Source: Micromonospora citrea (GTDB lineage Bacteria; Actinomycetota; Actinomycetes; Mycobacteriales; Micromonosporaceae). Taken from it: 64,000 nt of DNA. The stretch is taken from assembly GCF_900090315.1 (NCBI RefSeq), contig NZ_FMHZ01000002.1:868001-932000 (forward strand), written 5' to 3'. How positions within the stretch are numbered: position 1 is the first letter of the stretch; each line of letters begins with the position of its first letter. A program made the translations under genes and the position numbers. This document shows positions 41,026 to 62,112 of the stretch, one piece after another. The notes beneath the pieces were generated by a model. That model was not told where the DNA came from, ran no database searches, and saw nothing but the letters and a program-made list of their open reading frames with translations.

Positions 41026-43158
41026 TCAGCCCGACAGGTACACCGTCCGGGTGGGTTCGGCGAGCACCGCGCGCGCAGCCGGCAGGTCGGCCAGCCGCGC
41101 GGCCAGGGTCGCCGCCGCCAGGCGTTCGGGCAGCGCGGCGCTGAACTTGAGCCCGGCGAGGGCCTTCTCGGTGACGTCCGGCAGGCAGACCCGCTCGGCG
41201 GCGTCGGCCATGGCCGCCCGCACCGTGTTGCGGTCGACGTCGGGTCGCAGCCGGATCGAGGCGTCGTCGTACCGCTGGGTCGGGTCGGCGATCTCGCTGA
41301 GGGTGGCGATCAGGGTGGCGTTGGCCCGGAAGCCGGCCCACGTCCACCACTTCGTCTCGCCGTCGGCGTCGCGGGCGACCACCGTGCCGCCGGGGTGGAC
41401 GAGGGAAGTGGCCTCCTGCCGCAACTGGGCGAGCCTGGTGCTGGCCCGGCCGGTCAGCGCGACCGGCGGGTCGGCGCCGAGGAGCACGTCGCGCATCGCC
41501 CGGACCATCCGGTACGACAGCCCCTGGGGCGACCCGCCGGTCATCCAGAGCGCCTTGCCGCCGCCGTCGGCGGGCTCGACGAAGCAGCGCCTGCGCTTCC
41601 AGTCGACGTGGGTGACCCGCCAGCTGCGCCCGGCGAGCAGCAGCAGCCGGGGGCCCTGCACCTTGGCGGTGAGCAGCGCAGGGTCCGTGCGCCCGATCTC
41701 GGTGCGACCGGAGAGCACGGTGAACTGGGGCGGGGCGGTGAACACCGCCAGCATGTCCATGAAGTGCCGGCGACCGAACCGCAGCTCCGCCTCCGGCCCG
41801 ATGAAGAGCATCCCGGAGTCGACGTCGAGGTAGCCGCGCTCGACGAGGTGCCGCACGATCACCTCGGCGCTCTTGTCGAAGGGCGCCAGCCCGTTCCACT
41901 CCGCCGGCCACACCTGGTCGCCGACGCGGTGCCGCTGCAGCGACAGCGCGAGCATCTGCTGGGCCACGATGTGTCGGGGCTCCGGCGGCGGCACGACGGC
42001 CTCTACCCAACCCTGCGACCAGAGGTGGAGCAGCCCGGCGGCGTGCAGCAGCCCTTCGCCGTCCAGCGCGAGGAAGAGGCAGTTCCGGCTGCTGCCGGGC
42101 CGCCGTCCGGTCCGGCCGATGCGCTGCAGGAACGCGGCGACGGTACGCGGGGCGTCGATCTGGATGACCCGGTCGAGGTCGCCCACGTCGATGCCCAGCT
42201 CGAGGGTGCTGGTGGCGACGATGACGCAGTCCCGCTCCTGCGCGAACGCCTCCTCGGCCCGCCGTCGCTCGTCCACCGACAGCGAGGCGTGGGAGAGGAA
42301 CGTCGTCACGTCGAGTGCCCGCAGCCGCTGGCCGAGCTCCTCCACCAAGGCGCGGGAGTCGCAGAACACCAACCGCTTCTCGCCGCGGTGCAGGGCCGCG
42401 ATCACCTTGGCGGCGTTGTGGACGGACCCGACGTAGTCAAGCTCGACCTCGCCGGCCGGAGTCGGTGCCGCCGTCGTGGCGCGGGCCGGCGCGCCGATGC
42501 CGGGTGCCACGACCCGCGCCCGCCGCAGGTCGCGTCCGGAGCCCTGCAGCCAGCCCAGCAGCTCGTCGGGGTTGCCCACCGTGGCGGACAGGCCGACCCG
42601 CTGCACCGGGCGACCGGCCACCCGGGAGAGGCGTTCGAGGACGGCCAGCAGGTGCCAGCCCCGGTCGTCTCCCGCGAACGCGTGCACCTCGTCGACCACG
42701 ATCGCCCGGAGCTGCCCGAAGAACTCGTCGTGGTCGACGGCGGCGCTGACCAGCATCGACTCCAGGGACTCCGGCGTGGTGAGCAGGACGTCCGGCCGCT
42801 CCCGGAGGATCGTCCGGCGCCGGCCCATGGTCACGTCGCCGTGCCAGAGCGCGGCGCGGCGACCGAGCCAACCGGCGTAGGCCTCGAGGCGGGGCAGGAG
42901 GTTGTTGAGCAGGGCCTTCAGCGGGCAGACGTAGAGCACGGAGGTGCCCGCCCAGTTCTCCTGCGCCATCCGGGACAGCAGCGGGAACACCGCCGCCTCG
43001 GTCTTGCCGCCAGCGGTGGGGGCGAGGAGCAGGGCGTCCTCGCCGTCGAGCAGCGGCCGCACTGCGGCGTCCTGCAGGGGCCGCAGCGCCGGCCACTGCA
43101 ACGTGTTGACCACGTGGTGCAGCACGACCGGGTGCAGCAGCTCGGCACCACTCGTCAT
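41026..43158 (-). CDS. brxHI: DEAD/DEAH-box helicase of BREX type 2, BrxHI
   Basis: 710 residues, superfamily 2 helicase. Walker A APTAGGKTEA (residues 46-55), Walker B VVDEVHAF, motif III LSATVG, and the second RecA domain with VATSTLELGIDVGDLD and QRIGRTGR. A C-terminal DNA-binding region follows. Last gene of pglY-pglZ-brxD-brxHI, 13 bases after the brxD stop. BREX blocks phage replication; the helicase's exact step is not established. Confidence 0.87.
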   Translation of the reverse strand: MTSGAELLHPVVLHHVVNTLQWPALRPLQDAAVRPLLDGEDALLLAPTAGGKTEAAVFPLLSRMAQENWAGTSVLYVCPLKALLNNLLPRLEAYAGWLGRRAALWHGDVTMGRRRTILRERPDVLLTTPESLESMLVSAAVDHDEFFGQLRAIVVDEVHAFAGDDRGWHLLAVLERLSRVAGRPVQRVGLSATVGNPDELLGWLQGSGRDLRRARVVAPGIGAPARATTAAPTPAGEVELDYVGSVHNAAKVIAALHRGEKRLVFCDSRALVEELGQRLRALDVTTFLSHASLSVDERRRAEEAFAQERDCVIVATSTLELGIDVGDLDRVIQIDAPRTVAAFLQRIGRTGRRPGSSRNCLFLALDGEGLLHAAGLLHLWSQGWVEAVVPPPEPRHIVAQQMLALSLQRHRVGDQVWPAEWNGLAPFDKSAEVIVRHLVERGYLDVDSGMLFIGPEAELRFGRRHFMDMLAVFTAPPQFTVLSGRTEIGRTDPALLTAKVQGPRLLLLAGRSWRVTHVDWKRRRCFVEPADGGGKALWMTGGSPQGLSYRMVRAMRDVLLGADPPVALTGRASTRLAQLRQEATSLVHPGGTVVARDADGETKWWTWAGFRANATLIATLSEIADPTQRYDDASIRLRPDVDRNTVRAAMADAAERVCLPDVTEKALAGLKFSAALPERLAAATLAARLADLPAARAVLAEPTRTVYLSG

Positions 43159-43171
43159 GACGGAGGCGTCC

Positions 43172-44485
43172 CTACAGCTCGAGCGGGACCGCGTCGGCGC
43201 TGCTCGCGTTGCGCTCGACGTCGGTCATCTCGGTGGCGGTCAGGGTCGGCGCGTAGTGCTGCCGGGGGTCGAACTCGGCGAACTGGTCCACCCGGTCGAG
43301 CACCTCCCCCACCAGCTTCTTGAGGAACAGGCGCGGGGCCACCCCGACTTTGCCGCCGAGTCCGCCGGCGACCGCGCGGGCCAGGTCGCCCAGATACCCG
43401 TCGTCGACGAGGCCGCGCACCCGGTCCGGGGCCGCCGAACCGTCCGCGTAGAGGTCGCGCACCCGTCCACCCAGCTCGACCAGGGAGTCGACGGTGAAGC
43501 CGGGCAGCCGGATCTGCACCGCGCGCGGGTTGTCGAACCGCGCGTCGGTGGTGAAGTCGACGGCGAGCCGCTGCGCCAGCGGCGCGAGCCGCTGCACGCC
43601 CTGCGGCCCCTCGTAGAAGGCCGGGGTGCCGGTGATGATCAGGTACAGCCCGGGGAACCGTCCCGAGTGTACCTCGTCGATGAGCTGCCGCAGCGCGTTG
43701 AGGGCCTTGTCCCGGGCGTCCGAGCGGACCCGTTGCAGCGTCTCCACCTCGTCGAGCACGAGCAGCAGGCCGGGATGGCCGCTGTCACGCAGCACGGCGA
43801 GCAGCCCCTGCACGAAGCTCAGCGCGGCGAAGTGGTCCAGGTCGCCCTTGACGCCGGCGGTCCGGCGGGCGGCCGCGGCGACGTGCGGCTGTCCGCCGAG
43901 CCAGGCGAGCACCGCGTCGGCCGTCGTCGAGTCTCCGGCGAGGGTGGCGCGCCGGTAGCCGCGCAGGGCGGCGGCGAAGGCGGGGGCGCTCCGGCTGACG
44001 GTCGCGAGCCGCTGGTCCAGCAGCGTGGCGACCGCCCGGTCGAGGGCGTCGACGTCGTCGGCCGCGACCTCGCCGGCCGCGAGGACGTCCTCCTCCAGCG
44101 CGTAGAACCAGCCGTCGACGACCGGCCGCAGCGCGCTCGGCGGGAACGTCGAGGTGCTCAGCCGCTCGGTGAGCCGCCGGTAGACGGTCTCCAGCCGGTG
44201 CAGCGGGGTCTCGTTCTCGGAGACCTGCACCTCCGCCGTGGCGAGGTTGGCCCGTCGGGCGCGTTCGGCGATCCACCGGGTGAAGAACGTCTTACCGGAG
44301 CCGTACTCGCCGCGGACGGCCTTGAAGACGGAGCCGCCGGTGGCGACGGTGTCGAGGTCCTCGCCGATCGCGGCGCCGAACCGGTCGAGCCCCACCGCGA
44401 AGAGGTCGAGGCCGGCCGAGGGCACGGCGCCCCGGCGCAGGGCGTCGACGACCTCCCGGCGGCGGGCCGGGCTGACGCCGCTCAC
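43172..44485 (-). CDS. brxD: BREX ATP-binding protein BrxD
   Basis: 437 residues, usual BrxD length. N-terminal RRREVVDALRRGAVP, Walker A GEYGSGKT (59-66), Walker B LLLVLDEVETL, and the conserved GGKVGVAPRLFLKKLV and DPRQHY near the C-terminus are typical. GTG start overlapping the pglZ stop (GTGA). A core component of type 2 BREX. Confidence 0.9.
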   Translation of the reverse strand: MSGVSPARRREVVDALRRGAVPSAGLDLFAVGLDRFGAAIGEDLDTVATGGSVFKAVRGEYGSGKTFFTRWIAERARRANLATAEVQVSENETPLHRLETVYRRLTERLSTSTFPPSALRPVVDGWFYALEEDVLAAGEVAADDVDALDRAVATLLDQRLATVSRSAPAFAAALRGYRRATLAGDSTTADAVLAWLGGQPHVAAAARRTAGVKGDLDHFAALSFVQGLLAVLRDSGHPGLLLVLDEVETLQRVRSDARDKALNALRQLIDEVHSGRFPGLYLIITGTPAFYEGPQGVQRLAPLAQRLAVDFTTDARFDNPRAVQIRLPGFTVDSLVELGGRVRDLYADGSAAPDRVRGLVDDGYLGDLARAVAGGLGGKVGVAPRLFLKKLVGEVLDRVDQFAEFDPRQHYAPTLTATEMTDVERNASSADAVPLEL

Positions 44486-47220
44486 GAGGGGCCTGCCGGC
44501 AGCCGGAACTGCTCCCGCAGCAGCCGCAGGTCCAGCCGTACGGTGCGGCCGTTGTCGGTCAGCGAGAGCACCGGGTAGTTGTCGACGTTGAAGATCCGTT
44601 GCAGGGCGTTGACGAAGCCGGTCGCGCGGGCCGGCACCTCGCCGGCCCGCTGGGCCAGCACCGCCGCCGGCAGCACGCCCTTGGCGTCGGCCAACGCGCG
44701 CATCGCCGCCTCGATCTTCCGCACTTCCACCCGACGCGGCGTCAGGCCGTGCTGCGCCTCGAACAGCTCGGTGGCGAGCAGCGCCGCCACCAGGTCGCCG
44801 TCGCCGGCCGGCGTCACCGCCGCGGTCGTCGTCGCCTCCGGTACGTCGAACAGCGCGTCCCCGGTGACGGCGGGGGCCTTCCGGCGCGGCTTGGGCACGG
44901 CTGCCGGCGCCACGGCAGCCGGTGGCGACGCGGCCGGTGCGGTCGGCCGCCACCACTGCGGTTCGCGGGCCTCGACGGGTGCCCAGCCGGCCGGCGGCTC
45001 GGCGACGTTCGGCAGCAGGAAGGCCAGCAGCGGGATGGTGACTTCGGCGAGCGACGCGCCGCCGTGGTAGCCCGCCTTGCTGGGCCGGTACCGCAGCAGC
45101 GGGTCCCACAACGCGATCGTCCGCTTGCCGTCGGCGACGACGCGGGGGCCGGACAGCTCGATCTCGCCGGGCGCGGTCGGGCCGGGGCCGGTCCGGTGCC
45201 GCGCCGAGGCGGCGTCGGCGGCCTTGACGTGCTGACCGCCGCGTTCCAGCACGTGACCATGGTCGCTGGTGACGACGATCGCGCGGCCGGAGGACCGCGC
45301 CTGGTCGAGCAGGCTGCGCAGGAACCCGATGTCGTCGAGCTGCCACCCGGCCTCGTCGCCCTCCCGCCCGTGGGCCAGCGACTCGTCCACCGTGTTGATC
45401 ACGACGGCAACCACGGGCGCCGGGCCCGCGACCGCCGCCGCCAGTTCGCCGGCGAACACCTCGCCCGCGCCGCCCCGGGCCGGGCCCTTGTGGAAGATCC
45501 GCGAGCCCCTGCCCCAGCGGCCGTCGGCGAAGAGCTTCTTCTCGTGCTCCTGGTTACCGCTGCGCAGCGCGCCGGCGAAGAGCGAGGTGCGGGAGACGGC
45601 GGTCAGCGTGGGCAGCGCCGCCACGACGCCCCGCCGGCGTCCCGCGCCGGCCCCGGCGAGCGGGTCGTACTCGACCCAGTGCTGGGACAGCTCGTCGGCG
45701 AGCTGCACCGCGACCGCCGCACTCATCCCGTCGAGGACCACGAGCAGCACCGGCCGGTCGGCGCGGATCAACGGCTCGACGACACGCGGAAGCAGATTCT
45801 CCACGGTGAGCAGCCCGCCGTCGTTGCCCGGCCCGGCGGTCGCCCAGGCGCCGAGGCGTCCGGCGAAGGCGCCGTCGAGTTCACGGCGACGTGCCTGCGC
45901 GCGATCGTGGATCGCCCGGAACGCCTGCTGCAGCTCCGGATGGGCGTCCTCACCGGCCCAGACGTGGTTGAGCGCCAGGTCGACCCAGCCCCACTCGGCG
46001 ATCTGCCGATCCACCCCGTCGGCGACGCTCTCGGGCGGTGCCACGTCCGTGCCGAGCCAGCGGACGAGGCGCTGCGCCATCCGGATCCGCGTGATCCGCT
46101 GCGTCTCCGCCTCCGCCAGCCGGTGCTCGGCGAGGTGCCCGACCGCCACCTCCAAAGCGGGGTCCGCCGCGTCGTGCAGCCCGGTGAGCAGGGCTCGGGC
46201 CGCGACACCGATCCGCTGGTTGAAGCCGGTGCGCAGGATCGGGCTGTGCCCGGCGCTGCCGGCCGCGTTGAACTGGACGAGCAGTTCCTCTGCCCGGTCG
46301 AGCACCGCGTGCCCCTGCCGCCGCACGTCGGTCTTCGGGGCGACGAGCAGGCCGGTGACGACCTGCACGGCAGCCTCGGCGAAGCCCCGCACGGTCGCGT
46401 CGTCGTTGAGGCTGCCGAAATACTGGTCGACCCGGCCCTGGGCGCGTACCGCGTCGGCGCTGTCGGTGCTCCACAACGCGTCGCAGACCAGGCCGAGGGG
46501 CAGCGCCTCCGTGCCGTGACCGGCGGCGATCAGCGCGAACAGGGCCTTCGCCGGCCGGCCGAACTGCTCCACGAGCCACCGGGCCAGCCCGTCCTGTTCC
46601 TCCTCGCGGAGCAGCCCGTACGCCTCGACCGCGCCCGGTTGGGCGCTCCACCGCAGCAGCGCGGCGACGTCGAGGTCGTCGGGGCCCTCGCCCCGCCGGT
46701 CGAGGCCGAGGCGCACGGCGGCGAGGTGCCGCAGCGCGACGTCGCGGGTCAGCACGGCGGTGGCCAGCTTGGGCCAGCCCGCAGCCGGCATCGCGTCGAG
46801 CAACGCCATCCCGGCCCACGACTCCCGCTCCAGAGCGGTGTCCGGCAGTTGCGCGCCGAACGCGTCCACGACGAGGTCCCACGGCTCGACGGTGAGGACC
46901 CGCTGCCGGAAGATCCGGCTCCGGACGCCGTGGTGCAGCACGGACTCCGGGATGTCGGTGAGCAGCACCAGCACCTCGTCGCCGCGGTCGGCGACGAGGT
47001 GCTCCCAGACGGCGAGCGGCGACACGCACGGCACGATCCGGGCGCGCCGGCCGTCGGGCAACAGCATCGTCGGGTCGTGCGGCCACGCCGGTTCGGCGCG
47101 CACCACCAGCACGGGGTACGCGTCTCCGTTGCGGTGCCGGTCGAGTTGTTGCGCCACCTTCTGGCGCAACGCCACCGGGCTGATCCGCAGCGCCTGGGCG
47201 AGGGCGGGTGCCTGAGTCAC
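44482..47220 (-). CDS. pglZ: BREX phosphatase-like protein PglZ
   Basis: 912 residues. The central PglZ domain belongs to the alkaline phosphatase superfamily: VLLVVLDGMSAA (about residue 490) carries the first metal-ligand Asp, LTAVSRTSLFAG the nucleophile-region Ser/Thr, and VVTSDHGHVLERGG (about 650) the DHG metal motif. GTG start overlapping pglY. In the Pgl system of Streptomyces, PglZ is essential for phage growth limitation. A Pro/Ala-rich hinge separates the C-terminal domain. Confidence 0.93.
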   Translation of the reverse strand: MTQAPALAQALRISPVALRQKVAQQLDRHRNGDAYPVLVVRAEPAWPHDPTMLLPDGRRARIVPCVSPLAVWEHLVADRGDEVLVLLTDIPESVLHHGVRSRIFRQRVLTVEPWDLVVDAFGAQLPDTALERESWAGMALLDAMPAAGWPKLATAVLTRDVALRHLAAVRLGLDRRGEGPDDLDVAALLRWSAQPGAVEAYGLLREEEQDGLARWLVEQFGRPAKALFALIAAGHGTEALPLGLVCDALWSTDSADAVRAQGRVDQYFGSLNDDATVRGFAEAAVQVVTGLLVAPKTDVRRQGHAVLDRAEELLVQFNAAGSAGHSPILRTGFNQRIGVAARALLTGLHDAADPALEVAVGHLAEHRLAEAETQRITRIRMAQRLVRWLGTDVAPPESVADGVDRQIAEWGWVDLALNHVWAGEDAHPELQQAFRAIHDRAQARRRELDGAFAGRLGAWATAGPGNDGGLLTVENLLPRVVEPLIRADRPVLLVVLDGMSAAVAVQLADELSQHWVEYDPLAGAGAGRRRGVVAALPTLTAVSRTSLFAGALRSGNQEHEKKLFADGRWGRGSRIFHKGPARGGAGEVFAGELAAAVAGPAPVVAVVINTVDESLAHGREGDEAGWQLDDIGFLRSLLDQARSSGRAIVVTSDHGHVLERGGQHVKAADAASARHRTGPGPTAPGEIELSGPRVVADGKRTIALWDPLLRYRPSKAGYHGGASLAEVTIPLLAFLLPNVAEPPAGWAPVEAREPQWWRPTAPAASPPAAVAPAAVPKPRRKAPAVTGDALFDVPEATTTAAVTPAGDGDLVAALLATELFEAQHGLTPRRVEVRKIEAAMRALADAKGVLPAAVLAQRAGEVPARATGFVNALQRIFNVDNYPVLSLTDNGRTVRLDLRLLREQFRLPAGPS

Positions 47221-50200
47221 GGCACGATTCTCCAGCTCACCTCGATCGTGTCATCCGGGTGGGCGGCCGCGAAGGCGCGGAGCTTCTCGACCGCCCGGTC
47301 AATATCGGCCGCAGGAACAGCCACCTCGCTCCTCGGGGCGACCACCGTGTCGCCGCCGTCCGGCTGGACCTTCTCAGCGGGATCGCGGATCACGACGTCA
47401 GGAGACCGGTCGTCGATCAGCTCCCGGCGGCGGGTCACTCGGCGGATGAGCGCCACCGCGTCGGACTGGGCCCGGCGCAGGGCCGGGGACAGCGGGGCGG
47501 TCAGCTCGTCGGCCTGGCCGACCCGGCGCAACTCGGCGAGGATCGCCGCCGCCTCGGTGGCGTACGGCGCACCGAGGCCGCTGATGATCTCGAAGTTGTC
47601 CCAGGAGACGCCGGCCAGGTCGGCCGACACCTGCGAGGCGCTCTTGATGCTCTTTCCGGTGCGGTCGGCGGGCCCACCGAGCTCGGCCCGGGCGAGGCGC
47701 TCCACGGTCTCCACCGCCGATCGCGCGGTGGACAGGCCCTCCAGCAGGTCGGCGGCGGCACGGGCGGTGCCCAGTCGACCGTTCGCCGAATCCTTGTCGA
47801 TCCCCAGCCACTTCACGTGCTGTTCGAGTCGGGCGACCAGCCCGTGTGCCGCCTCGCGATACCGGTTCGCCTGGATCGTCAGGTCGCGGCCGAACATCGC
47901 CACCAGTCGTCCCCGCCGCAACGCGATCGGCTGGACGCCGAAGATGGCGGCGGACCGGGCGCGCGCGGCGTCCCAGTCCTCCTGGCTGGGCAGCCGCTCC
48001 TCGCGCAGGGTGTGGTCCGCCCCGATCTTGCCGACCTCAGGGGCCGGGACGACCTCGCTGCCGTGCAGGTAGAAGGCACGGTCGGTCTGCTCGGCGAAGG
48101 TGGCGACGACGAGCTGCGCCACGATCGGGTCGAGGCCGCGCGCCTGCGGCTCGTCGGTCCAGCGCAGCAGGTCGGCCACCCGCAGCTCGCCCTTGATGCC
48201 CTCGGTGGCGGCCTTGTGCTGGAAGTGCTGGGCCCACTGCCCCTCGATGACGAACGCCGCCTCGTGCATGGTGCCGAGCCCGAGCGGGTTGGCGATGCGG
48301 CGCAGCGTCTGCCGGTGGGCCCGCTCCACCTCGACGCGACCCTCGGGCGACTCGACCGCCCGCCGGACGTGGTCGAGGACGACCTTGACGTCGGGCAGGC
48401 GTACGGCTTCGCCCTTGCGGTCGGGGTCGAAGTCCGGGTGGGCGGGGAACTGCTGGCTGAGCATCTGGTCGCCGAGGCTACGCAACGCGTCGTTGAAGGT
48501 CGCGCCCATGGGCAGCTTCGGCTCCAGGGCGCGGGTGAGCGACTGGAGGTGGTCGTCGAACCCGAGCTGCACGTCGGTGGGCTGCTTGCCGGCCAGCCCG
48601 TACGCCTGGCGCAGCACGGCCTGCATCTTGTTCAGCAGCGCGCTGCGCTGGTTGGTCAGCGCGGCGTGGGCGCGGCGCCGGTCGTCGGGGTTGAGGTGCT
48701 CGGCGTGGCTCTCGAAGCGCTGGCCCTCGAGCAGCTTGTCGATGATGACCAGCTTGCCCAGCTCGGTGCGGCGCTCGACGGTGAGGGCGGCCGGAATCCA
48801 GCAGACCGTGCGGGAGCTCGTCCGGCCGATGAGTTCCTGCACCCGCTGCCGGTCGTCGGCGGGGCCGTGGCTGCCGTCGTCGAACGGATAGTCGATGATC
48901 ATGCGCCAGCCGGCCGGGTCGTTCGGGTGGAACGCCTCGTCCCGGATGTCGTGCGGGTCGCGGACGTTGCCGTAGACCAGCTCGATCGTGCGGCGGCTCC
49001 CCCGCCAGGTCAGCCCCGCCTCGGCGAAGAACGAGTCGCTCCACGGCACGCCGAGCTGCTGCCAGAGCAGCCGCTGGACCATGTGCTTGCGGGCGCCCTC
49101 GTTGTCGTAGTGCTTGGCGGTGGCGAGCACGCTGTCGACGTCGACGCCGACCAGTTCCAGGGAGACCACCGGGTCGTCGCCCTCGCCGATGCGGATCTCG
49201 GCGAACCGGCCTGCCCAGTCGGCGAGCTTGCGGCTGACCTGGGCGACCTCGCCGCCGGGGATCGGGCTGGTGATGCTGCCGTGGTTGAGCGCGGACAGCC
49301 GCCGGGCGGTCAGGTTCCGCAGCGCCGGCACGCTGGGCGCGAGGGCCGCCAGCAGCAGCGTCTTGATCAGCCGGTCGTCGCCGGTGAAGGCCCGGATCCG
49401 GCCGGTCGTCTCGGCGGGCTGGGGGTCGCCGCGGCGGGCCGCGTCGAGGTCGTCGTCGGTGAGGTCGTACTGGCCGAGGAGGTAGGGGCGCAGCTTCAGG
49501 TCGTAGAGCTTCTGGGCCATCTCGAACTCGGCCTTGAGCTTCTCGGTGAAGGGCTGGTCACCGCCGCTGCTGATCACGTCGTAGAGATCGCCGAGCGGCA
49601 CGAGCTGCCCGAGGCGCAGCGTGTCGCGGCGGTCGACCAGCAGTTGGCGCATCAGCTTCAGCGCGGTGCGGGAGCGCTGCAGCGCGCTGGAGACGTGGAC
49701 GAGCGTGGAAAGGAACGCGGGGCTGAACGGGTACGTCGACCGGAAGGCGTCGATGTCGGCGCCGCTGCCGGAGTCGGTGCCGAGCAGGGTGTCGAAGACC
49801 TCCCGGCGTACCTTCGTGGTGGCGTCGAAGGCCCGGGCGATGGCATCGCCGGCCGTGGTGTCGCGGGGCTTGAGCAGCCGGCGGCGGGCGATCTCCGGGA
49901 GATTGCGGTCCTCCAGCTTGATCACGTCGAAGCGGCCGCTGGCCAGGTTGAGGGTGTCCTGGTAGCTCAGCTCGTTGGCGCCGGTCACCTCCTCGCCGAC
50001 GAGTTCGCGCAGGTCGCGCTGGCGGGCGATGAAGCTGATCACCGGGATGGGCCGGCGGGTGTCGCCGCCCTCGACGAAGTTGGTGATCTTCTGGATCTCG
50101 CGGGAGACGAACTGCTGGTCGCCGATCGAGTTGGCCAGCCAGAGGATCAGCTCGTCGAGGAAGAGGATCAGGCCGTGGTAGCCGAGCTCCTTGGCGTGCC

Positions 50201-50966
50201 GGCTGATCTCGGTCAGGCCCCGGTCGAGCGAGACGAACGCCTCGGCGTCCTCGCGCGCGTTGCTGAAGAAGCCCTTGTTCCAGCTCGTCAGCAGGTCGTT
50301 GACCAGCTTGCGGCGCAGCTCGTCGTTGTACGCGCCGGCGAACGCCTGGTCGAGCCGCTCGGGCGTCCAGAAGGTTTCGCTCTCGCCCCACTCGTCCTCG
50401 ACGTCCCCGCCCGGCAGGCCTTCGATGAACTGCTTGTCGCCGATCTTCTCCCGCAGCGAGGCGGCCTGGTCCAGCAGCGCGTCGGTGCGGTGCACAGCCG
50501 GGATGGGCGCCTCGGGGTGCAGCGCGCGGACGCGGTCTACGTAGCCGCCCAGCACACGCTGTTCCAGGGAGCGGGCGTCGAGCAGGTGATAGGGCACCAG
50601 CAGGAACTTGCGGCCGTCCAGCCAGACGCTGTGCTTGGCGACGAGCGGCGCGAACTCGTCCCGCCCCCGGGCGGCGGACTCGCCGCGCAGCAGCGCGTGC
50701 AGCACCGCCATGAAGTGCGACTTACCGGAGCCGAAGGAGCCGTGCAGGTAGGCGGCCTTCGACGCGTGCCCCTCGACCGCCGATCGAATCAGCCCGAGCG
50801 CCTCGTCGAAGTTGCCGAGCAGCCGGTCCGTGACGACGTAGTCGCGGAGGGTGGCGTCGGCGTCGGCGACGCTGTCGGCGAGCTTGAGCACGAAGTCGCT
50901 GGTGCTCGTGCGCTCCGGGATGTCGATGAACTCCCGGAGCAGCGGCGCGGGGGTGGGCGAAGACAT
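47217..50966 (-). CDS. pglY: BREX ATPase PglY
   Basis: 1249 residues. N-terminal P-loop LHGSFGSGKSHF (residues 75-86) and LILFLDELILWLAN Walker B, then very long helical regions, as in PglY/BrxC ATPases. The C-terminus ends in an ordered domain (DDTIEVSWRIVP). The ATG at 50966 was chosen because TACGGT lies exactly seven bases upstream (50974-50979), giving a leaderless promoter, and because family similarity begins there. First gene of the four-gene BREX operon. Confidence 0.93.
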   Translation of the reverse strand: MSSPTPAPLLREFIDIPERTSTSDFVLKLADSVADADATLRDYVVTDRLLGNFDEALGLIRSAVEGHASKAAYLHGSFGSGKSHFMAVLHALLRGESAARGRDEFAPLVAKHSVWLDGRKFLLVPYHLLDARSLEQRVLGGYVDRVRALHPEAPIPAVHRTDALLDQAASLREKIGDKQFIEGLPGGDVEDEWGESETFWTPERLDQAFAGAYNDELRRKLVNDLLTSWNKGFFSNAREDAEAFVSLDRGLTEISRHAKELGYHGLILFLDELILWLANSIGDQQFVSREIQKITNFVEGGDTRRPIPVISFIARQRDLRELVGEEVTGANELSYQDTLNLASGRFDVIKLEDRNLPEIARRRLLKPRDTTAGDAIARAFDATTKVRREVFDTLLGTDSGSGADIDAFRSTYPFSPAFLSTLVHVSSALQRSRTALKLMRQLLVDRRDTLRLGQLVPLGDLYDVISSGGDQPFTEKLKAEFEMAQKLYDLKLRPYLLGQYDLTDDDLDAARRGDPQPAETTGRIRAFTGDDRLIKTLLLAALAPSVPALRNLTARRLSALNHGSITSPIPGGEVAQVSRKLADWAGRFAEIRIGEGDDPVVSLELVGVDVDSVLATAKHYDNEGARKHMVQRLLWQQLGVPWSDSFFAEAGLTWRGSRRTIELVYGNVRDPHDIRDEAFHPNDPAGWRMIIDYPFDDGSHGPADDRQRVQELIGRTSSRTVCWIPAALTVERRTELGKLVIIDKLLEGQRFESHAEHLNPDDRRRAHAALTNQRSALLNKMQAVLRQAYGLAGKQPTDVQLGFDDHLQSLTRALEPKLPMGATFNDALRSLGDQMLSQQFPAHPDFDPDRKGEAVRLPDVKVVLDHVRRAVESPEGRVEVERAHRQTLRRIANPLGLGTMHEAAFVIEGQWAQHFQHKAATEGIKGELRVADLLRWTDEPQARGLDPIVAQLVVATFAEQTDRAFYLHGSEVVPAPEVGKIGADHTLREERLPSQEDWDAARARSAAIFGVQPIALRRGRLVAMFGRDLTIQANRYREAAHGLVARLEQHVKWLGIDKDSANGRLGTARAAADLLEGLSTARSAVETVERLARAELGGPADRTGKSIKSASQVSADLAGVSWDNFEIISGLGAPYATEAAAILAELRRVGQADELTAPLSPALRRAQSDAVALIRRVTRRRELIDDRSPDVVIRDPAEKVQPDGGDTVVAPRSEVAVPAADIDRAVEKLRAFAAAHPDDTIEVSWRIVP

Positions 50967-51067: not shown

Positions 51068-51688
51068 TCAGACAGAGACGCCCGTACCGCCCGCTCTCAT
51101 GGACGGAATCCGGACGCTTGAACCGTTCGCGTACACGACCCGGAATCCGAGGTGGTTGGCCAATGGCGCCCAACGGGCCGAGGAGGCGAGTTGCTCGACG
51201 CTGTTGACCTTGCCGCTGTTGACGAGCCTGTCCAGGATCACCGTCTCGAACGCCGCGGACTCGATCCAGTCAATCTGCTTCGTGAAGCCGCACACCATCG
51301 ACGCTCCGGTCCTGTACAGGAAGTCGGCAAGGTACGCGTCGGACCCCCGCAGCACGGAACATCCGCCGATGTAGATGCGCTTGCCCTGCCACCGGCCCGA
51401 CATCCAGCCTGCTACCTCGTCGAGGCTGGTCGAGTGCGACTTCGACAGCCACAACTCGCTGGGGGCCCCGTGCAGCGCGAAGAAGCCCACCTCGTAGGCG
51501 GAGTACCTCTTCGACGACCACTGTTCGAGGAAGTATCTGAACTGCTCCGCAGTGACGGCGCTCTTGTGGATGTGTTGGAGGCTTCCCAACCGCTCCAACA
51601 TGTCCAACGTCGGAAGCACCGACCGCCGCTTGGTCAGATCGCTGTCCCACTCACCCTCGACACAGAACACACCCTTGGGCTTCGGCAC
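51068..51688 (-). CDS. Caspase/CHAT-like candidate cysteine protease (DUF6642-like)
   Basis: 206 residues. The layout is that of a clan CD (caspase-like) domain: strand YEVGFFALHG with His73, then strand KRIYIGGCS with Cys110, followed by AYLADFLYRTGASMVCGF and the WIESAAFETVILDRL helix. The 37-residue His-Cys spacing fits the fold. The DUF6642 name is recalled from similar proteins, not searched. GTG start with AGGGGG seven bases upstream. It ends 101 bases before pglY on the same strand, so it may be a BREX-linked effector. Activity is inference. Confidence 0.7.
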   Translation of the reverse strand: MPKPKGVFCVEGEWDSDLTKRRSVLPTLDMLERLGSLQHIHKSAVTAEQFRYFLEQWSSKRYSAYEVGFFALHGAPSELWLSKSHSTSLDEVAGWMSGRWQGKRIYIGGCSVLRGSDAYLADFLYRTGASMVCGFTKQIDWIESAAFETVILDRLVNSGKVNSVEQLASSARWAPLANHLGFRVVYANGSSVRIPSMRAGGTGVSV

Positions 51689-52044: not shown

Positions 52045-53034
52045 ATGCCCATACCACTCATCGCTGCGGCCCTGATCGCGATCGGCACAGCCACCGGAGG
52101 CGGCGGCATGGCTCTGGGAGGTATGGGTGCCTACGACATCGTGCAAGCCACCAGTCGGCTCAAGAAGGCTCAGCGCCGCTACGAGCAACGACGCAGCGAG
52201 TCCGAGGCCATCCTCGCCGCGGCGAACGACAAACTCAGGGTGCTGGGCGAGCACCAGAAGCAGGCGCTCGACGACGTCGTAGGGCGCATGGGTGACTTCC
52301 TGCGCCGTCACGAACGACAGGTGCGTGAGAGTGAGCGTCTCCTGGTGGATGGCGTCGACGCCGCCATGAGCCAGGTGCCCGGGCTCGGCGGCCTCGACGT
52401 GGAAGCAGTCGCGTGGATCAGTGGCGTCCTGGGCTCCGCCGCAGCAGGTGCAGGAACGGGAGCGGGTGTCACCGCCGCCGCGAGCAGCCTCGGCGTGGCC
52501 AGTACCGGCGCTGCCATCTCCGGCCTGTCCGGGGCGGCTGCGGAGAGCGCAACCCTGGCTTTCCTCGGCGGTGGGAGCATCGCTTCCGGGGGCGGCGGCA
52601 TGGCGCTTGGAGCCACGGCTCTCGGCTTCGTAACCATCGGCCCGGCATTGCTCGTCGGCGGGCTCGTCGTGAAAGGACAGGGCACCAAGGCGCTCACCCA
52701 GGCCAGAGAATCTGAGGCTAAGATCGCCGTCGCGATCGCGGATCTCGACGAGACGGACGCTCGACTCGCAGGGGTTGACGCTCGCGCCGACGAGCTGAGC
52801 GACCTCCTCAAGACGCTCAGCGCCCTCGCCGTCAAGTCGCAGGACCTGCTGGAGTCGGAACCGTTCGACCCGAAGGTCCACGCAGCACGCTTCCAACGGG
52901 CCATGACCCTGGTCATGGCGGTCCGCGACGTCGCTGCCACACCGGTGATCGACACGCAGGGTGAGCTGAGCGATCGAAGCGCCAACCTGACGGTGAAGTA
53001 CCGCCGCTTGAGTGAGGAGCCGGGGGATGCCTGA
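52045..53034 (+). CDS. Glycine-zipper membrane protein with coiled coil, unknown function
   Basis: 329 residues. A Gly-rich hydrophobic segment (residues 3-29), a charged coiled coil (about 36-100), then a long Ala/Gly hydrophobic region (about 120-210) containing LGGGSIASGGGGMALGATAL, and a second helical coil. GxxxG-type runs pack membrane helices closely, so it may insert in membranes or form a pore. I recognise similar uncharacterised proteins but no named function. ATG preceded by AAGGGGGA. Its stop overlaps the next start by eight bases. Codon use is less GC-extreme than housekeeping genes here, a sign of transfer. Confidence 0.82.
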   Translation: MPIPLIAAALIAIGTATGGGGMALGGMGAYDIVQATSRLKKAQRRYEQRRSESEAILAAANDKLRVLGEHQKQALDDVVGRMGDFLRRHERQVRESERLLVDGVDAAMSQVPGLGGLDVEAVAWISGVLGSAAAGAGTGAGVTAAASSLGVASTGAAISGLSGAAAESATLAFLGGGSIASGGGGMALGATALGFVTIGPALLVGGLVVKGQGTKALTQARESEAKIAVAIADLDETDARLAGVDARADELSDLLKTLSALAVKSQDLLESEPFDPKVHAARFQRAMTLVMAVRDVAATPVIDTQGELSDRSANLTVKYRRLSEEPGDA

Positions 53035-53458
53035 CCAACGCAAGGTGCACGTTGGGAAGATCGTCAAGCCCACCAGAAGTTCGCTGTCCGCCCTCGACGG
53101 CTTCACCGCCTTGAAACAGATCGTGGAAGCCGCAAGCGAATGCATCCAGATCCACGAGGTGGAGCGCACCAAGCGTGCCAAGCTCCAGGCCTACGAGTCC
53201 GCCGAGGTCGCACGGATCAAGGCGGCGGAGGCAGTTCTGCGGGACTACTTCGAGCAGGCTTTCGCCGAGCGGCGCAACCTCTATCGAGAGCTGTTCACCC
53301 GGCTCGACCGGGCTCTTGACGAGGGCAACGGTGAGGTCCTGCACGAGGTGGTCAGAGGCATCGTCGACATCGCCCGCAGCTCTCCGCTGGCCGACATGGG
53401 TGATCTGAGCAAGGTCCGCGCAGCGCTCGACGACCCGGACCAGGTTTGGGACCTCTGA
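53027..53458 (+). CDS. Coiled-coil partner protein, unknown function
   Basis: 143 residues, almost entirely helical: ALKQIVEAASECIQIHEVER, KAAEAVLRDYFEQAF and ELFTRLDRALDEGN, ending in SSPLADMGDLSKVRAAL and DDPDQVWDL. No membrane span or catalytic motif. It overlaps the glycine-zipper gene and is translationally coupled to it, so the two very likely act together, the soluble coil perhaps gating or docking the membrane partner (inference). Confidence 0.82.
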   Translation: MPDQRKVHVGKIVKPTRSSLSALDGFTALKQIVEAASECIQIHEVERTKRAKLQAYESAEVARIKAAEAVLRDYFEQAFAERRNLYRELFTRLDRALDEGNGEVLHEVVRGIVDIARSSPLADMGDLSKVRAALDDPDQVWDL

Positions 53459-56719: not shown

Positions 56720-56971
56720 GTGTCCAAGTACGACGCTCTAAGAGATCACCTTCGGCGGCGGGCGAGCGAGGTGTGGTACACCCTCGACGAAGTCTCGGAA
56801 CTGGTGCCGGGTGGGCTGCCCCCATCGGCCTACCGGTACGAAGCGTGGTGGGCCAACGGCGACCAGACACATCCGCACAGCCGAGCATGGGGAGCTGCCG
56901 GCTTCACCGCTCATCCCGACCTCGCCCGCCGAGCAGTGCGATTCATGCCGAAGCCGAGGACGTCGCGATGA
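56720..56971 (+). CDS. DUF7662-like small protein
   Basis: 83 residues. MSKYDALRDHL, YTLDEVSELVPGGLPPSA, then YEAWWANG and SRAWGAAGF follow the pattern of DUF7662 proteins (SKYDPL, PPSARxHxxWWxN, W-x-AG), judged from memory. Function unknown; the family often sits next to nucleic-acid enzymes. GTG start with GGAG five bases upstream. The stop overlaps the next ATG (ATGA), so it is coupled to the glycosylase-like gene. Confidence 0.78.
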   Translation: MSKYDALRDHLRRRASEVWYTLDEVSELVPGGLPPSAYRYEAWWANGDQTHPHSRAWGAAGFTAHPDLARRAVRFMPKPRTSR

Positions 56972-57660
56972 CAAGCGAGCCGGCGTGTGCGCCGTTTGCG
57001 GGAGAACCTCCCTCGCGCGAGACGTACATCCTCAACCATGGGTTCCAGTTCAATCCAGGGACCTGGCGACGCCGGTTGCCAGAGCCGATCGGCCTACCGG
57101 CCTGGATCGAGGACCTTCCCCAACTCGGTCGCTGGCCACGCATCACGCGCGGGGATCTGCTGCGGGCGGGCGCTGCCGCACACACCGGTCGCGCGGCCAT
57201 CGACGTCCTGATCGGGGCGTACATATGGGGCAGCGGACTGCCCAGCGGGCGAGGGCCGGCCCGTCTGCGCAAGGTGTTCGATCTCAACGACGGCCGCACG
57301 GAGCGGCACCTCGGTGAGGCACTCCAGGTCTTGCGGAGTGCGGGACCTCGGGCGGCGTATGCGGCCCTCCATCACGGAGGTGACTACGGGCTGAAGCGGC
57401 TGGGTCCATCCTTCTTCACCAAGCTGCTCTACTTCCTCGGCTGGGACTCGGCAGCGGGCGACCAGCGGCCCCTGATCATGGACCAGTACGTGGTGATCGG
57501 CATGAACGGTTGCCGGGGCACGAGTTGGCGACCGGCTGGCCCCTGGAGCGCCGACAAGTACGGCGAGTACCTCGCCTGGGCGCACGAGCGCGCGCGTGGC
57601 TGGGGCGGCGGCACCGAGCCTGACGTCGTGGAGCGGGCGGTTTGGGAGCACGGCCGCTGA
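56968..57660 (+). CDS. OGG-fold (8-oxoguanine DNA glycosylase-like) protein
   Basis: 230 residues. HhH-GPD-type features: helical core LLRAGAAAHTG and LIGAYIWGSG, the hairpin LGPSFFTKLLYFLGWD with Lys152, and LIMDQYV with Asp172. The Lys-Asp spacing of 20 residues is almost that of human OGG1 (Lys249/Asp268), so base excision with lyase activity is plausible. The beginning (YILNHGFQFNPGTW) and end (PDVVERAVWEHG) are shared by actinobacterial proteins annotated as OGG-fold. In a defence island the target may be modified phage DNA (inference). Confidence 0.8.
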   Translation: MTSEPACAPFAGEPPSRETYILNHGFQFNPGTWRRRLPEPIGLPAWIEDLPQLGRWPRITRGDLLRAGAAAHTGRAAIDVLIGAYIWGSGLPSGRGPARLRKVFDLNDGRTERHLGEALQVLRSAGPRAAYAALHHGGDYGLKRLGPSFFTKLLYFLGWDSAAGDQRPLIMDQYVVIGMNGCRGTSWRPAGPWSADKYGEYLAWAHERARGWGGGTEPDVVERAVWEHGR

Positions 57661-58542: not shown

Positions 58543-61500
58543 TCATGCCTTGGCCTTGCGGCCGCGGGTGGCCTTCGGCGGGCGCCAGGACGTGAGCACC
58601 TCGTCGGTGAGGTGGAGGCGGTTGGTGGTCTCGGCGAGGAAGCCGGCGTAGATGTCCGCCGGCGAGGCGCCCCACTCCGGGTCGAACTCGCCGTGCCACT
58701 GGCGTACCCAGGGCAGGATCTCGCGCAGCCCCGCGACCAGCGGTAACAGCCGGTCGGCGGCCCAGCCGTCCTCCTGCTCGCGGGCGACGATCAGGGTGGC
58801 GAGGGCCTGGGCCTGCTCGCGGTGGTCCCAGCCGGCCCAGCCGACCAGCAGCGACGGGTCACCGTCGCGGCTGGCACCCGGGTACGACACGAACCGCTCC
58901 TTGGGCACGTCGAGTTTGCCCCGGTGCTTCCAGTAGCTGCCCTTGAGGAAATCCGCCGACGTGTACTTCGGCGGCACCGGGATCTGCTTGCGGAACTCCC
59001 GCTTCGCCGCCTCGTCGGGCAGCGCGTCCTCCTGCCGCTGCAGGTCCCACACGTGCTCCCAGTCGGCGCGCTTGGCCAGCCCGGAGTCCTTGTAGCGCAA
59101 CGCGGCCAGATGCGGCACGTGCTCGTCGGCGACCAGATCGGCGACCACCTTGCCGAGATCCTGACCGGGCGCGTAGATGCCGGCGACGGTGAGCACGTCA
59201 TCGTCGCGGCGCAGCTCGTCGGCGAGCTGGGCGGTGGTCAGCGGACGCGGCTGCTCCAGCCCGTCGACGTGGTGGTACCACAGCTCGCGCGCCTCGCACC
59301 GGTCCAGCAGCCAGTCGCGCAGCGCCTTCGCCTGCATCGCGTCCCAGCCCTCGGTGGCCCAGCGCCGCTTGCACTCCGGCCGCTCGATCAGCCCGATGTT
59401 GCGGTTGCCCTCGATGACCGCGATCCGCCGCTCCACGACCGCCTTGTACTCCGGCGACCAGTGCGCCGGCAGCTCAGTGATCGGCGTCGACCCGTGCCGG
59501 GCGAACCACTGCGTCTCCATGCCCTCGTCGCGCATCTTGCGGGCGAGCACGATCTCGAAGGCCCGCTGCCCGAGCTGGAGCATCGGCGGCCGGACGCTCT
59601 CCGGGGCGGTCAGGTCCTCGTCCAGCAGCCCGTAGAGCGAGTAGACCTGCCAGTCCAACTCCTCCTGCAGGCAGATCATCGCGCCACGCAGCATGTGCCA
59701 CTCGTAGGCGGCGGCACTCAGCCGCTCACGGGTCGGCACCCCGGATGCCGCGACCGCCGCCGGGCTCACCGTGGCGAGCCGCTGCGCCGCGCCGTCAATT
59801 CTCCGGCCCAGTTCGAGGGGGTACGCCGACGGCAGCGGGAACTCCTGCAGCCTCGTACCGTTCAGTTGATAAAACTTCTCCCAATCCTCGCTTGCAATTC
59901 CGCCGTTAATCCCGCCATTTCCTTTGCAGTGGCAGGCTTGCTTGATCCAGAAGCAGGCAGTCGAACTGTTGAGCACGCCCAGCAGGCGAAGATGGTCCTC
60001 CTCCGATGCTCCCGGCGGCAACTTGATCACCGGTGCCGTTTGCTTGAAGATCTTTCCGCCCCGGTCCAACACGAAGTGGTTGTGCGTCGCTACCTCTCCG
60101 AACGCAACCGACAACGGCGCCCGTAGCTTGTCGCGATACAACTCTCCATACTCGTGCCACTGCAGCGACGGTATGTCTTCGATCAGCGTGCCGAAGCGCT
60201 TTCGTCGTTGCAGGACCCGCCGATTGGGCCAGAGATGCCTGCAGGTCTTAGGAAGTGCGTCTACTGGTCGGGCCCGCAGGTCAGCGTCGTATGGCCAAAC
60301 ACTCACGACATCGGGATCGGTCTGATAGTCACGAACCACATCGCCGGTCACCATCGGCCGGACGGCTTCAACCTTCGCCGAACCGTTGCTAGGGAGGAAG
60401 AAGGCATCGTCTTCTGCGGTGATTGCCACGAAGCCACAGGCAGACAACATGTGGCCGAGAACTGTCCGACCTGACTCGATGCAACTCATGAGGTCACCCG
60501 CTCCACCGCCGCTTAGACTCCAGGGAAATATCGCTAGATTTGCACGCGGTGTGTCGGCAACACTGACCCACTGGCTTTCCGAGCCGGGCTGCTTGACCTG
60601 ACCGACAATGGACTGCCACACGAGGCCCTCTCCCGGGTTGGCCGGAGCGCTTGGTTCGCCGCGGATGCCCATGACGGTGCGGATCGTGCCGGCTCGGCCG
60701 CGGTTGGTGTTGCGGCCGATCAAGATAACGGTCGGGGTGCCGTGGCCGGGGATGTAGGCACCAGACGTGTCGATGACGTGGGTCAGGTTGACCTCGACCG
60801 CGAACAGCTTCTCGATCATCTTCTTGCCGAACTCGCGCTTCATGAACGAGTTGGCGGTGATCTGCCCGACGTGTCCCGCGCCCTTGCCGTCGCCGTCGCC
60901 GGGCTTTGCGAGCTGGAAGAAGCGCTGCGCGAACGGTACCGATAGGGCGTACTTGCCGGAGCAGGCGTCGTACATCTCGCGGTATGCCTCGTTGAGCCCC
61001 TTGTCCTTGACAGTGATGTAGGGCGGGTTGCCGACTACGACGTGATAGCTGCCGGGGCTGAGGATGCCGGGATGCTCGTGCACGTCCTCGGTCGCGTAGG
61101 CGAACTCGGTCATCGGGTCTTCGCCGAAGAGCATGGCCTGCCGCCGCTTGATCAGTGAGTCGCCGACGGCGAGGTGCATCGGGAAGACGTAGCCGGCCGA
61201 GTCCGCGAGGGTCTTGACGCCGCTGGCGCGGAGGGCGGCTACCAGGAGGCGGAAGCGGGCGATGGCTACCGCGAAGGGGTTGATGTCGACGCCGTGGACG
61301 GCGTCGAGGGCGAGGCGAACCCGCTCGTGGGGGTCGCGGTTGGGGGCGTGCTGCTCCCACTCCTTCAGCAGCCGCTCGAAGGCACCGAGGACGAAGTGGC
61401 CCGAGCCGCAGGTGGGGTCGATCATCTTGACGCCATCGTGGCCGAACTCTTCGATCGCTGGGGTCAGCGTGAGGTCGAGGATGAACTCCTCGACGAACTC

Positions 61501-62112
61501 CGGCGTCTGGAGCAGGGCGTAGGTCTTGCGGGCTGCCTCGGAAAGGTCCTGGTAGAGGTCGCCCAGGAAGCGAGTGTCCCACTCGGGGTCGGTAAAGTCG
61601 TGGACCAGGCCACCGGTCTCGCCACGCCGCCGCCAGAAGGCGATCAGGTCCTTGGCCTCGTCGTGAGACAGCGGGATCTGGTAGAGCGGGTTGTGCCGTT
61701 CGTCGAACAGCGACCTACCAGCCTGGGTGCTGGCGATGGCGTCGAAGCCATGCTTCAGCCAACCACGAAGCGTCTCGTCGGGCTGGTCGCGGAAGAACTG
61801 CGCCTCGGCCTCCTCGGCCAGGACCAAGCGGTCCCCTGGACCGGCCAGGTAAGGGTCGGGCAGCAGGCCGTTGTCCTCGCAGAAGCGTACGAAGACGGTG
61901 CCGAGCACCCAGGCAACGGCGACCTGCGTGACGCGCTCGTCGCGCCAGGCCGCCCACGTGGCGGCGGTGCGCCCGACCTTGAAGGCGTGGTCGTACTCGC
62001 CACGCAGGCGGAGGCGCACCTCCTCGACCGATTCGGCCTGCTCCCGCAGGTCCTTTTCCAGGTTCTTGACCTGCTTCTGCAGGTCGGACAAGAGCAGCTT
62101 CCGGTCGATCAC
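58543..62112 (-). CDS. pglX: BREX type 2 adenine-specific DNA methyltransferase PglX
   Basis: 1189 residues. N-terminal coiled coil (about 5-35), SAM motif IDPTCGSGHF (231-240), a second SAM contact GVDINPFAVAIARFRL, catalytic NPPY at about 361, then a target-recognition region and a long C-terminal domain. It should methylate adenines to mark self DNA in BREX. GTG start with TAGAGT six bases upstream, so leaderless. Bases 59870-60600, within the recognition part, are clearly less GC-rich than the rest, as if exchanged. Confidence 0.95.
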   Translation of the reverse strand: MIDRKLLLSDLQKQVKNLEKDLREQAESVEEVRLRLRGEYDHAFKVGRTAATWAAWRDERVTQVAVAWVLGTVFVRFCEDNGLLPDPYLAGPGDRLVLAEEAEAQFFRDQPDETLRGWLKHGFDAIASTQAGRSLFDERHNPLYQIPLSHDEAKDLIAFWRRRGETGGLVHDFTDPEWDTRFLGDLYQDLSEAARKTYALLQTPEFVEEFILDLTLTPAIEEFGHDGVKMIDPTCGSGHFVLGAFERLLKEWEQHAPNRDPHERVRLALDAVHGVDINPFAVAIARFRLLVAALRASGVKTLADSAGYVFPMHLAVGDSLIKRRQAMLFGEDPMTEFAYATEDVHEHPGILSPGSYHVVVGNPPYITVKDKGLNEAYREMYDACSGKYALSVPFAQRFFQLAKPGDGDGKGAGHVGQITANSFMKREFGKKMIEKLFAVEVNLTHVIDTSGAYIPGHGTPTVILIGRNTNRGRAGTIRTVMGIRGEPSAPANPGEGLVWQSIVGQVKQPGSESQWVSVADTPRANLAIFPWSLSGGGAGDLMSCIESGRTVLGHMLSACGFVAITAEDDAFFLPSNGSAKVEAVRPMVTGDVVRDYQTDPDVVSVWPYDADLRARPVDALPKTCRHLWPNRRVLQRRKRFGTLIEDIPSLQWHEYGELYRDKLRAPLSVAFGEVATHNHFVLDRGGKIFKQTAPVIKLPPGASEEDHLRLLGVLNSSTACFWIKQACHCKGNGGINGGIASEDWEKFYQLNGTRLQEFPLPSAYPLELGRRIDGAAQRLATVSPAAVAASGVPTRERLSAAAYEWHMLRGAMICLQEELDWQVYSLYGLLDEDLTAPESVRPPMLQLGQRAFEIVLARKMRDEGMETQWFARHGSTPITELPAHWSPEYKAVVERRIAVIEGNRNIGLIERPECKRRWATEGWDAMQAKALRDWLLDRCEARELWYHHVDGLEQPRPLTTAQLADELRRDDDVLTVAGIYAPGQDLGKVVADLVADEHVPHLAALRYKDSGLAKRADWEHVWDLQRQEDALPDEAAKREFRKQIPVPPKYTSADFLKGSYWKHRGKLDVPKERFVSYPGASRDGDPSLLVGWAGWDHREQAQALATLIVAREQEDGWAADRLLPLVAGLREILPWVRQWHGEFDPEWGASPADIYAGFLAETTNRLHLTDEVLTSWRPPKATRGRKAKA

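Follow-up and report, generated by a model that had tools for sequence, protein, structure and literature searches.

A two-gene unit in a BREX-2 locus

The 64,000-nucleotide stretch of DNA analyzed here (referred to as the window) comes from the soil bacterium Micromonospora citrea (GCF_900090315.1, contig NZ_FMHZ01000002.1, positions 868,001 to 932,000, forward strand). Inside a type 2 bacteriophage exclusion (BREX-2) locus, it carries a pair of genes for a small DUF7662 protein and a predicted DNA glycosylase. A first-pass annotation of the window had correctly placed this pair at 56720 to 57660, and the ATGA overlap that it described lies, four bases long, at 56968 to 56971.

56720..56971, plus strand: DUF7662 (PF24698) gene; GTG start, 83 amino acids (aa); Pfam E value, 6.1e-15
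56968..57660, plus strand: OGG-like HhH-GPD DNA glycosylase (PF21790) gene; ATG start, 230 aa; Pfam E value, 2.5e-50

Both proteins belong to their Pfam families, PF24698 matching residues 4 to 64 at 55.2 bits (gathering cut-off, 26) and PF21790 residues 20 to 225 at 171.4 bits (gathering cut-off, 27). The 7.2-Mb genome holds one copy of each. The start assigned to the glycosylase agrees with that of an equal-length homologue at 87% identity, and the close homologues that carried an organism name in a protein search are from Micromonospora. Ratios of nonsynonymous to synonymous substitution rates are 0.08 to 0.22 for the DUF7662 gene (six comparisons among the window and the loci L065, L066, and L084) and 0.23 to 0.29 for the glycosylase gene (three comparisons, L065 left out). 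Both genes are under purifying selection by these low values, and their reading frames are not due to chance, with the caveat that a codon-usage gene caller missed the DUF7662 gene and recognized the glycosylase gene only in its 3' part. The four-base overlap is preserved as GTGA in L066 and L084.

Modeled fold and expected catalytic residues of the glycosylase

The predicted structure of the second protein has an HhH-GPD fold of the OGG type, as had been proposed, rather than an unrelated one. Its best structural matches are the OGG2 enzymes MjaOgg, SsoOgg, and TmaOgg, at 11 to 15% identity; UDG is absent among the 50 structural matches listed, an absence that proves nothing. The Pfam HhH-GPD family PF00730 was not reported for any of 33 OGG-like members at an E value limit of 10, where HMMER filters discard most weak matches. 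Two residues stand out in the alignments:

57421..57423, plus strand: codon of Lys152, the expected Schiff-base or substrate-aligning lysine; conserved in 101/101 rows, inside model helix 147-158
57481..57483, plus strand: codon of Asp172, the expected catalytic aspartate; conserved in 101/101 rows, after a Pro-containing loop and just N terminal to model helix 173-183

The first-pass annotation had pointed to this Lys/Asp pair and its spacing of 20 residues, and both residues proved invariant in alignments of 13, 33, and 101 rows. All three sets contain the window protein; the largest includes a few near-duplicates and excludes envelopes covering under 170 profile positions (L067 and similar fragments), identical copies, and P-numbered proteins shorter than 190 aa. 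Lys152 lies six residues past a conserved Gly146, and the conservation of Asp172 and Lys152 is as expected of the HhH-GPD superfamily, in which the lysine marks bifunctional members. The modeled fold and the catalytic pair support assignment to a little-known OGG-like family of HhH-GPD enzymes, and the protein is possibly a glycosylase-lyase.

Position and recurrence in the pglY-pglX interval

The first-pass annotation had spoken of a defense island, which we identify as a BREX-2 locus with PglW, PglX, PglY, and PglZ all above curated cut-offs. The pair is located in the interval from pglY to pglX.

47217..50966, minus strand: BREX-2 ATPase PglY, bounding the cargo interval on the left; NF047891, 1813.9 bits (cut-off, 1700)
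58543..62112, minus strand: BREX-2 adenine methyltransferase PglX, bounding the cargo interval on the right; NF033451, 1799.5 bits (cut-off, 400)
44482..47220, minus strand: BREX-2 PglZ; NF033446, 884.3 bits (cut-off, 200)
43172..44485, minus strand: BREX BrxD; NF033438, 675 bits (cut-off, 350)
41026..43158, minus strand: DExH-box helicase, last gene of the BREX-2 operon; helicase families under cut-off, best 235.4 bits; its place fits BrxHI
L004:4381-8772, past the right edge of the window: PglW, above its curated cut-off

Across 151 Micromonospora genomes, we found PF21790 in 54, DUF7662 in 19, and PglY in 43 (17 above cut-off). DUF7662 and PF21790 genes are adjacent in four of these genomes (G000, G046, G067, and G109), each time between pglY and pglX. 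The pair is broken in L067 (Micromonospora pattaloongensis), and L182 retains only fragments of DUF7662 and DUF6642. For four further protein pairs (P0002/P0019, P0003/P0021, P0006/P0030, and P0010/P0028), location on equal-sized contigs suggests but does not prove adjacency. Recurrence beside defense genes, an expectation of the first-pass annotation, is thus seen in 4/4 intact Micromonospora pairs inside BREX-2 and in a distant one behind hsdR/hsdM, and the pair as such is not found mostly in housekeeping contexts.

The interval was read in all 17 genomes with PglY above cut-off, although in L182 it ends at the contig end. GmrSD-type genes occupy it in at least eight genomes and the pair in four, with both present in one; DUF7662 occurs in 10 intervals, counting the L182 fragment. 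Five of the eight GmrSD-type genes were scanned with Pfam, and the other three were assigned by 76 to 79% identity to the L065 gene. The L189 cargo combines GmrSD_N and GmrSD_C, the composition found in BrxU, and the L188 cargo has GmrSD_C plus a partial GmrSD_N under cut-off. In L177, L178, and L179, DUF7662 begins 4 bases past a gene of 393 to 395 aa, itself downstream of a GmrSD_N gene; the L178 copy of this gene matches the phage defense candidate PDC-S02. In L180, DUF7662 begins 4 bases past a NOV_C gene. DUF7662 is therefore accompanied by varied DNA-acting partners within one cargo space.

Associations with DISARM and type I systems

Five further PF21790 genes (L105 and L107 to L110) have an N6 methyltransferase gene on one side and, on the other, the DrmD/DrmMI genes of the defense island system associated with restriction-modification (DISARM); this assignment rests on scans of three genes in L108 and on BLAST clusters for the other four loci. 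DrmA, DrmB, and DrmC follow in the L108 genome (L197). With the L108 DrmMI as query, 20/151 genomes proved to have relatives, nine of them close (≥60% identity). Among these nine, five carry PF21790 beside DrmMI, three (G044, G080, and G137) lack PF21790 altogether, and one (G069) has it split over contigs. As a possible further DISARM link, L094 of G069 has an OGG-like gene of a 30-row clade, described below, at most 7 kb from a BLAST-clustered DrmD-like gene. In G433, a genome related to that of the window only at the phylum level, the DUF7662 gene comes after hsdR/hsdM and shares one base with the hsdM end; a distantly related PF21790 gene faces it at 18 to 36 bases.

In the tree of OGG-like proteins, which is midpoint rooted and has weak deep branches, three groups stand apart: a BREX clade of 16 rows (100/99), a DISARM clade of 5 rows (100/99), and the G433 gene on its long branch. 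From this we derive three separate unions with defense systems. Within 25 kb of PglY or of a DrmMI relative, we found 14/21 DUF7662 matches (0.18 expected) and 9/62 PF21790 matches (0.29 expected), a significance that is overstated because the expected numbers presuppose uniform placement and take no account of common ancestry. Of the 14 nearby DUF7662 matches, 10 lie by PglY above cut-off, 2 (G124 and G141) by PglY below cut-off, and 2 (G106 and G137) by a DrmMI relative at 43 to 44% identity; other systems may be the source of the below-cut-off PglY rows and of the distant relatives of DrmMI. The 62 genus loci correspond to 64 match rows with the second pieces of split genes (G126 and G067) merged, the G083 match being below the family cut-off; 42/45 PglY rows and 20/23 DrmMI rows were used, small or second pieces being excluded.

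Other genes of the cargo interval

Between 51 and 63 kb, the window has a G+C content of 62 to 70%, compared with 74.7% overall, and codon bias is weak across this stretch, which includes the following gene:

51068..51688, minus strand: DUF6642 (PF20347) gene; Pfam E value, 1.2e-16

Three genes separate the DUF6642 gene from the pair in the window; in relatives it is divergent from the pair, adjoining it in L065, L066, and the remnant L067 and lying one gene off in L084. As DUF6642 also occurs without the pair (L184, L186, and L187), its membership in the unit is not firm.

Several other cargo genes recur. A 920-aa protein (window 53503-56265, minus strand) has no Pfam or PADLOC match and recurs at 34 to 51% identity in 9/16 other pglY-pglX intervals (L065, L084, L177, L178, L179, L182, L184, L187, and L189), making it an unnamed, conserved BREX-2 cargo gene. 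Two adjoining genes on the plus strand (52108-53034 and 53027-53458; 308 and 143 aa), both without a Pfam match, co-occur in L067, L084, L177, L180, and L184. The cargo also includes a thymidylate synthase-like protein in L180 (9876-10484; PF00303, E value 5.9e-6) and, alike by eye, in L177 (9742-10362), near a gene judged by reading to be a putative nucleoside deoxyribosyltransferase, and a protein in L182 (7443-9620) that combines an EAL domain with a CHAT-like stretch slightly under cut-off.

Interpretation and alternatives

Our preferred reading, held with moderate confidence, is that the pair is BREX-2 cargo in which the glycosylase excises altered bases of phage DNA and thereby complements BREX in the manner of BrxU, with DUF7662 as a partner. 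The analysis itself establishes the model fold, the invariant Lys/Asp pair, the BREX-2 position, purifying selection, and the repeated association of the family with methylation-based defense, whereas base excision, its substrate, an antiphage effect, and the partnership and role of DUF7662 are inferred. As optional cargo of the antiphage locus, the glycosylase would flip out and remove altered bases of incoming phage DNA, and the resulting abasic sites would block phage replication. Phages hidden from BREX by base modification would thus be covered by the glycosylase, as by BrxU elsewhere, and DUF7662, perhaps a winged-helix domain, would most likely be a small DNA-binding partner that guides or restrains the enzyme. 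In a BREX-2 locus, the pair takes a position comparable to that of GmrSD-type genes, and the simplest reading is that it removes altered bases by which phage DNA is shielded from BREX.

A number of observations weigh against this reading. At the level of the protein, a plain Foldseek search with the model gave no match at an E value of ≤0.001, its top rows being unrelated; there was no sequence match to glycosylases with solved structures, and Pfam gave the OGG-like protein no second glycosylase family. The distance from Gly146 to Lys152 exceeds that in OGG1 or Nth. The window protein ends in Arg, where OGG2 enzymes have a C-terminal lysine. With regard to the pair, it is absent from 13/17 intervals of the window's BREX-2 subtype, the four Micromonospora pairs form one clade in the tree and may reflect a single acquisition, and viral contigs yielded no confirmed instance. 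No start codon is present at the overlap position in L065, so the second gene there must start elsewhere or be affected.

Both families are also found beyond these systems. Most genus PF21790 matches (53/62) lie more than 25 kb from PglY or a DrmMI relative or on another contig, many of them belonging to a well-supported clade of 30 OGG-like rows that occupies two recurring sets of chromosomal neighbors in Micromonospora. Among 296 phylum genomes, PF21790 occurs in 11 and DUF7662 in 18, with both in 4 (G000, G151, G225, and G433) and adjacent only in G000 and G433. At the class level, PF21790 is present in 46/394 genomes (58 match rows), and none of the 25 further OGG loci read from these rows had DUF7662 within about 1.5 kb. 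In at least 6/19 phylum matches, DUF7662 instead sits behind an apparent phosphoribosyltransferase gene, recognized by a motif typical of such enzymes (L135, L136, L137, L140, L141, and L144, all in one family of the phylum). The OGG-like family as a whole is not defense specific, and DUF7662 also occurs outside defense. As separate observations on these wider sets, genus g234 has two PF21790 matches in tandem in eight genomes by position, of which only L222 (G493) was read, and a PF21790 gene at L208:2239-3351 (minus strand) adjoins a gene encoding the C-terminal domain of endonuclease NucS.

One alternative is that the protein is an ordinary repair enzyme, acting on 8-oxoguanine (8-oxoG) or another lesion, that came to lie in the island by chance. 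The OGG2-like fold of the model, the recurring chromosomal sites of the 30-row clade, and certain class-level copies adjoining housekeeping-looking genes speak for repair. However, the genome already holds three further HhH-GPD genes, all four located members of the window's clade are BREX-2 cargo, any copy at all is limited to 54/151 genus genomes, and the C-terminal lysine that serves OGG2 as its 8-oxoG sensor is missing here and present in only 4/39 homologues, fragments included. We regard simple repair as unlikely. Still more improbable, in our judgment, is a PabI-like restriction arm, in which the glycosylase would excise a base from DNA lacking PglX, DrmMI, or HsdM methylation, the methyltransferase protecting the host and the glycosylase serving as an additional cutter. 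PabI itself has a HALFPIPE fold and a cognate methylase. The company of three methyltransferase systems (BREX-2, DISARM, and type I) agrees with such an arm, and restriction glycosylases exist, as described in PMC10273834. Against it, PglX/DrmMI-type methyltransferases do not need the glycosylase, since it is absent from the 13 intervals and 3/9 close-DrmMI genomes noted above, and most genus copies lie away from either system.

We give similarly little credence to a toxin-antitoxin-like suicide unit in which the glycosylase would damage host DNA upon infection and DUF7662 would restrain it. The small gene does come first, with an ATGA or GTGA overlap, and could encode a winged helix. Yet the enzymes that precede DUF7662 differ widely (PDC-S02-like, NOV_C, and HsdM), and 58/62 genus and 25/25 class-level OGG-like genes have no DUF7662 adjacent to them.

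The interpretation given in the first-pass annotation is partly supported. Beyond it, we raise only as a tentative and rather doubtful extension that BREX-2, DISARM, and type I systems recruited the OGG-fold family as an effector that excises bases, on no fewer than three separate occasions, and that DUF7662 is a general small DNA-reading module shared by the cargo nucleases and glycosylases of these systems. If true, base excision rather than backbone cutting would give BREX and DISARM a second arm. Few antiphage DNA glycosylases are known, and those described in the accounts cited below are UDG-like or AAG-like; the presence of an HhH-GPD enzyme in BREX-2 and DISARM would extend this set by another fold and connect base excision with two large systems based on methylation. 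The analysis also defines pglY-pglX as a concrete cargo interval common to GmrSD-type genes and the OGG-like glycosylase, and DUF7662, hitherto without a function, gains a first set of partners.

Comparison with known systems

In size (chains of 207 to 214 residues) and in having Lys and Asp in HhH-GPD order, the OGG-like enzyme resembles MjaOgg, SsoOgg, and TmaOgg. It differs in its low identity, in lacking a sequence-level match, and in that OGG-like proteins do not conserve the C-terminal lysine, which the account of OGG2 in PMC3397491 gives as strictly conserved and sensing 8-oxoG. To the PabI type (PMC10273834) it would be similar in restricting by base excision.

BrxU, as reported in PMC8565348, is a GmrSD-type IV enzyme from a plasmid island with type I BREX, where BREX targets unmodified and BrxU modified phage DNA, so that the two give complementary cover. 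The OGG-like enzyme likewise is BREX-locus cargo, in an interval that contains GmrSD-type genes in at least 8/17 genomes, but it is a predicted glycosylase in BREX-2, whereas BrxU is an endonuclease in type I BREX.

The first-pass annotation had drawn a parallel to Brig1. According to the descriptions in PMC11078745 and PMC13160076, abasic sites left by Brig1 and Brig3 halt replication, and Brig1 homologues often lie among defense genes, chiefly in Actinobacteria (PMC11078745). The proposed action, excision of an altered phage base leaving an abasic site, is shared with Brig1, Brig2, and Brig3. The fold does not match, as Brig1 is UDG-like (PMC11078745) and Brig3 AAG-like (PMC13160076), whereas the OGG-like enzyme is an HhH-GPD protein with a Lys/Asp pair, located inside BREX-2. 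The partners differ as well, with the glucosyl hydrolase BapA described for Brig3 (PMC13160076) and DUF7662 as the putative partner of the OGG-like enzyme. The likeness to the Brig enzymes is therefore one of proposed action, not of fold.
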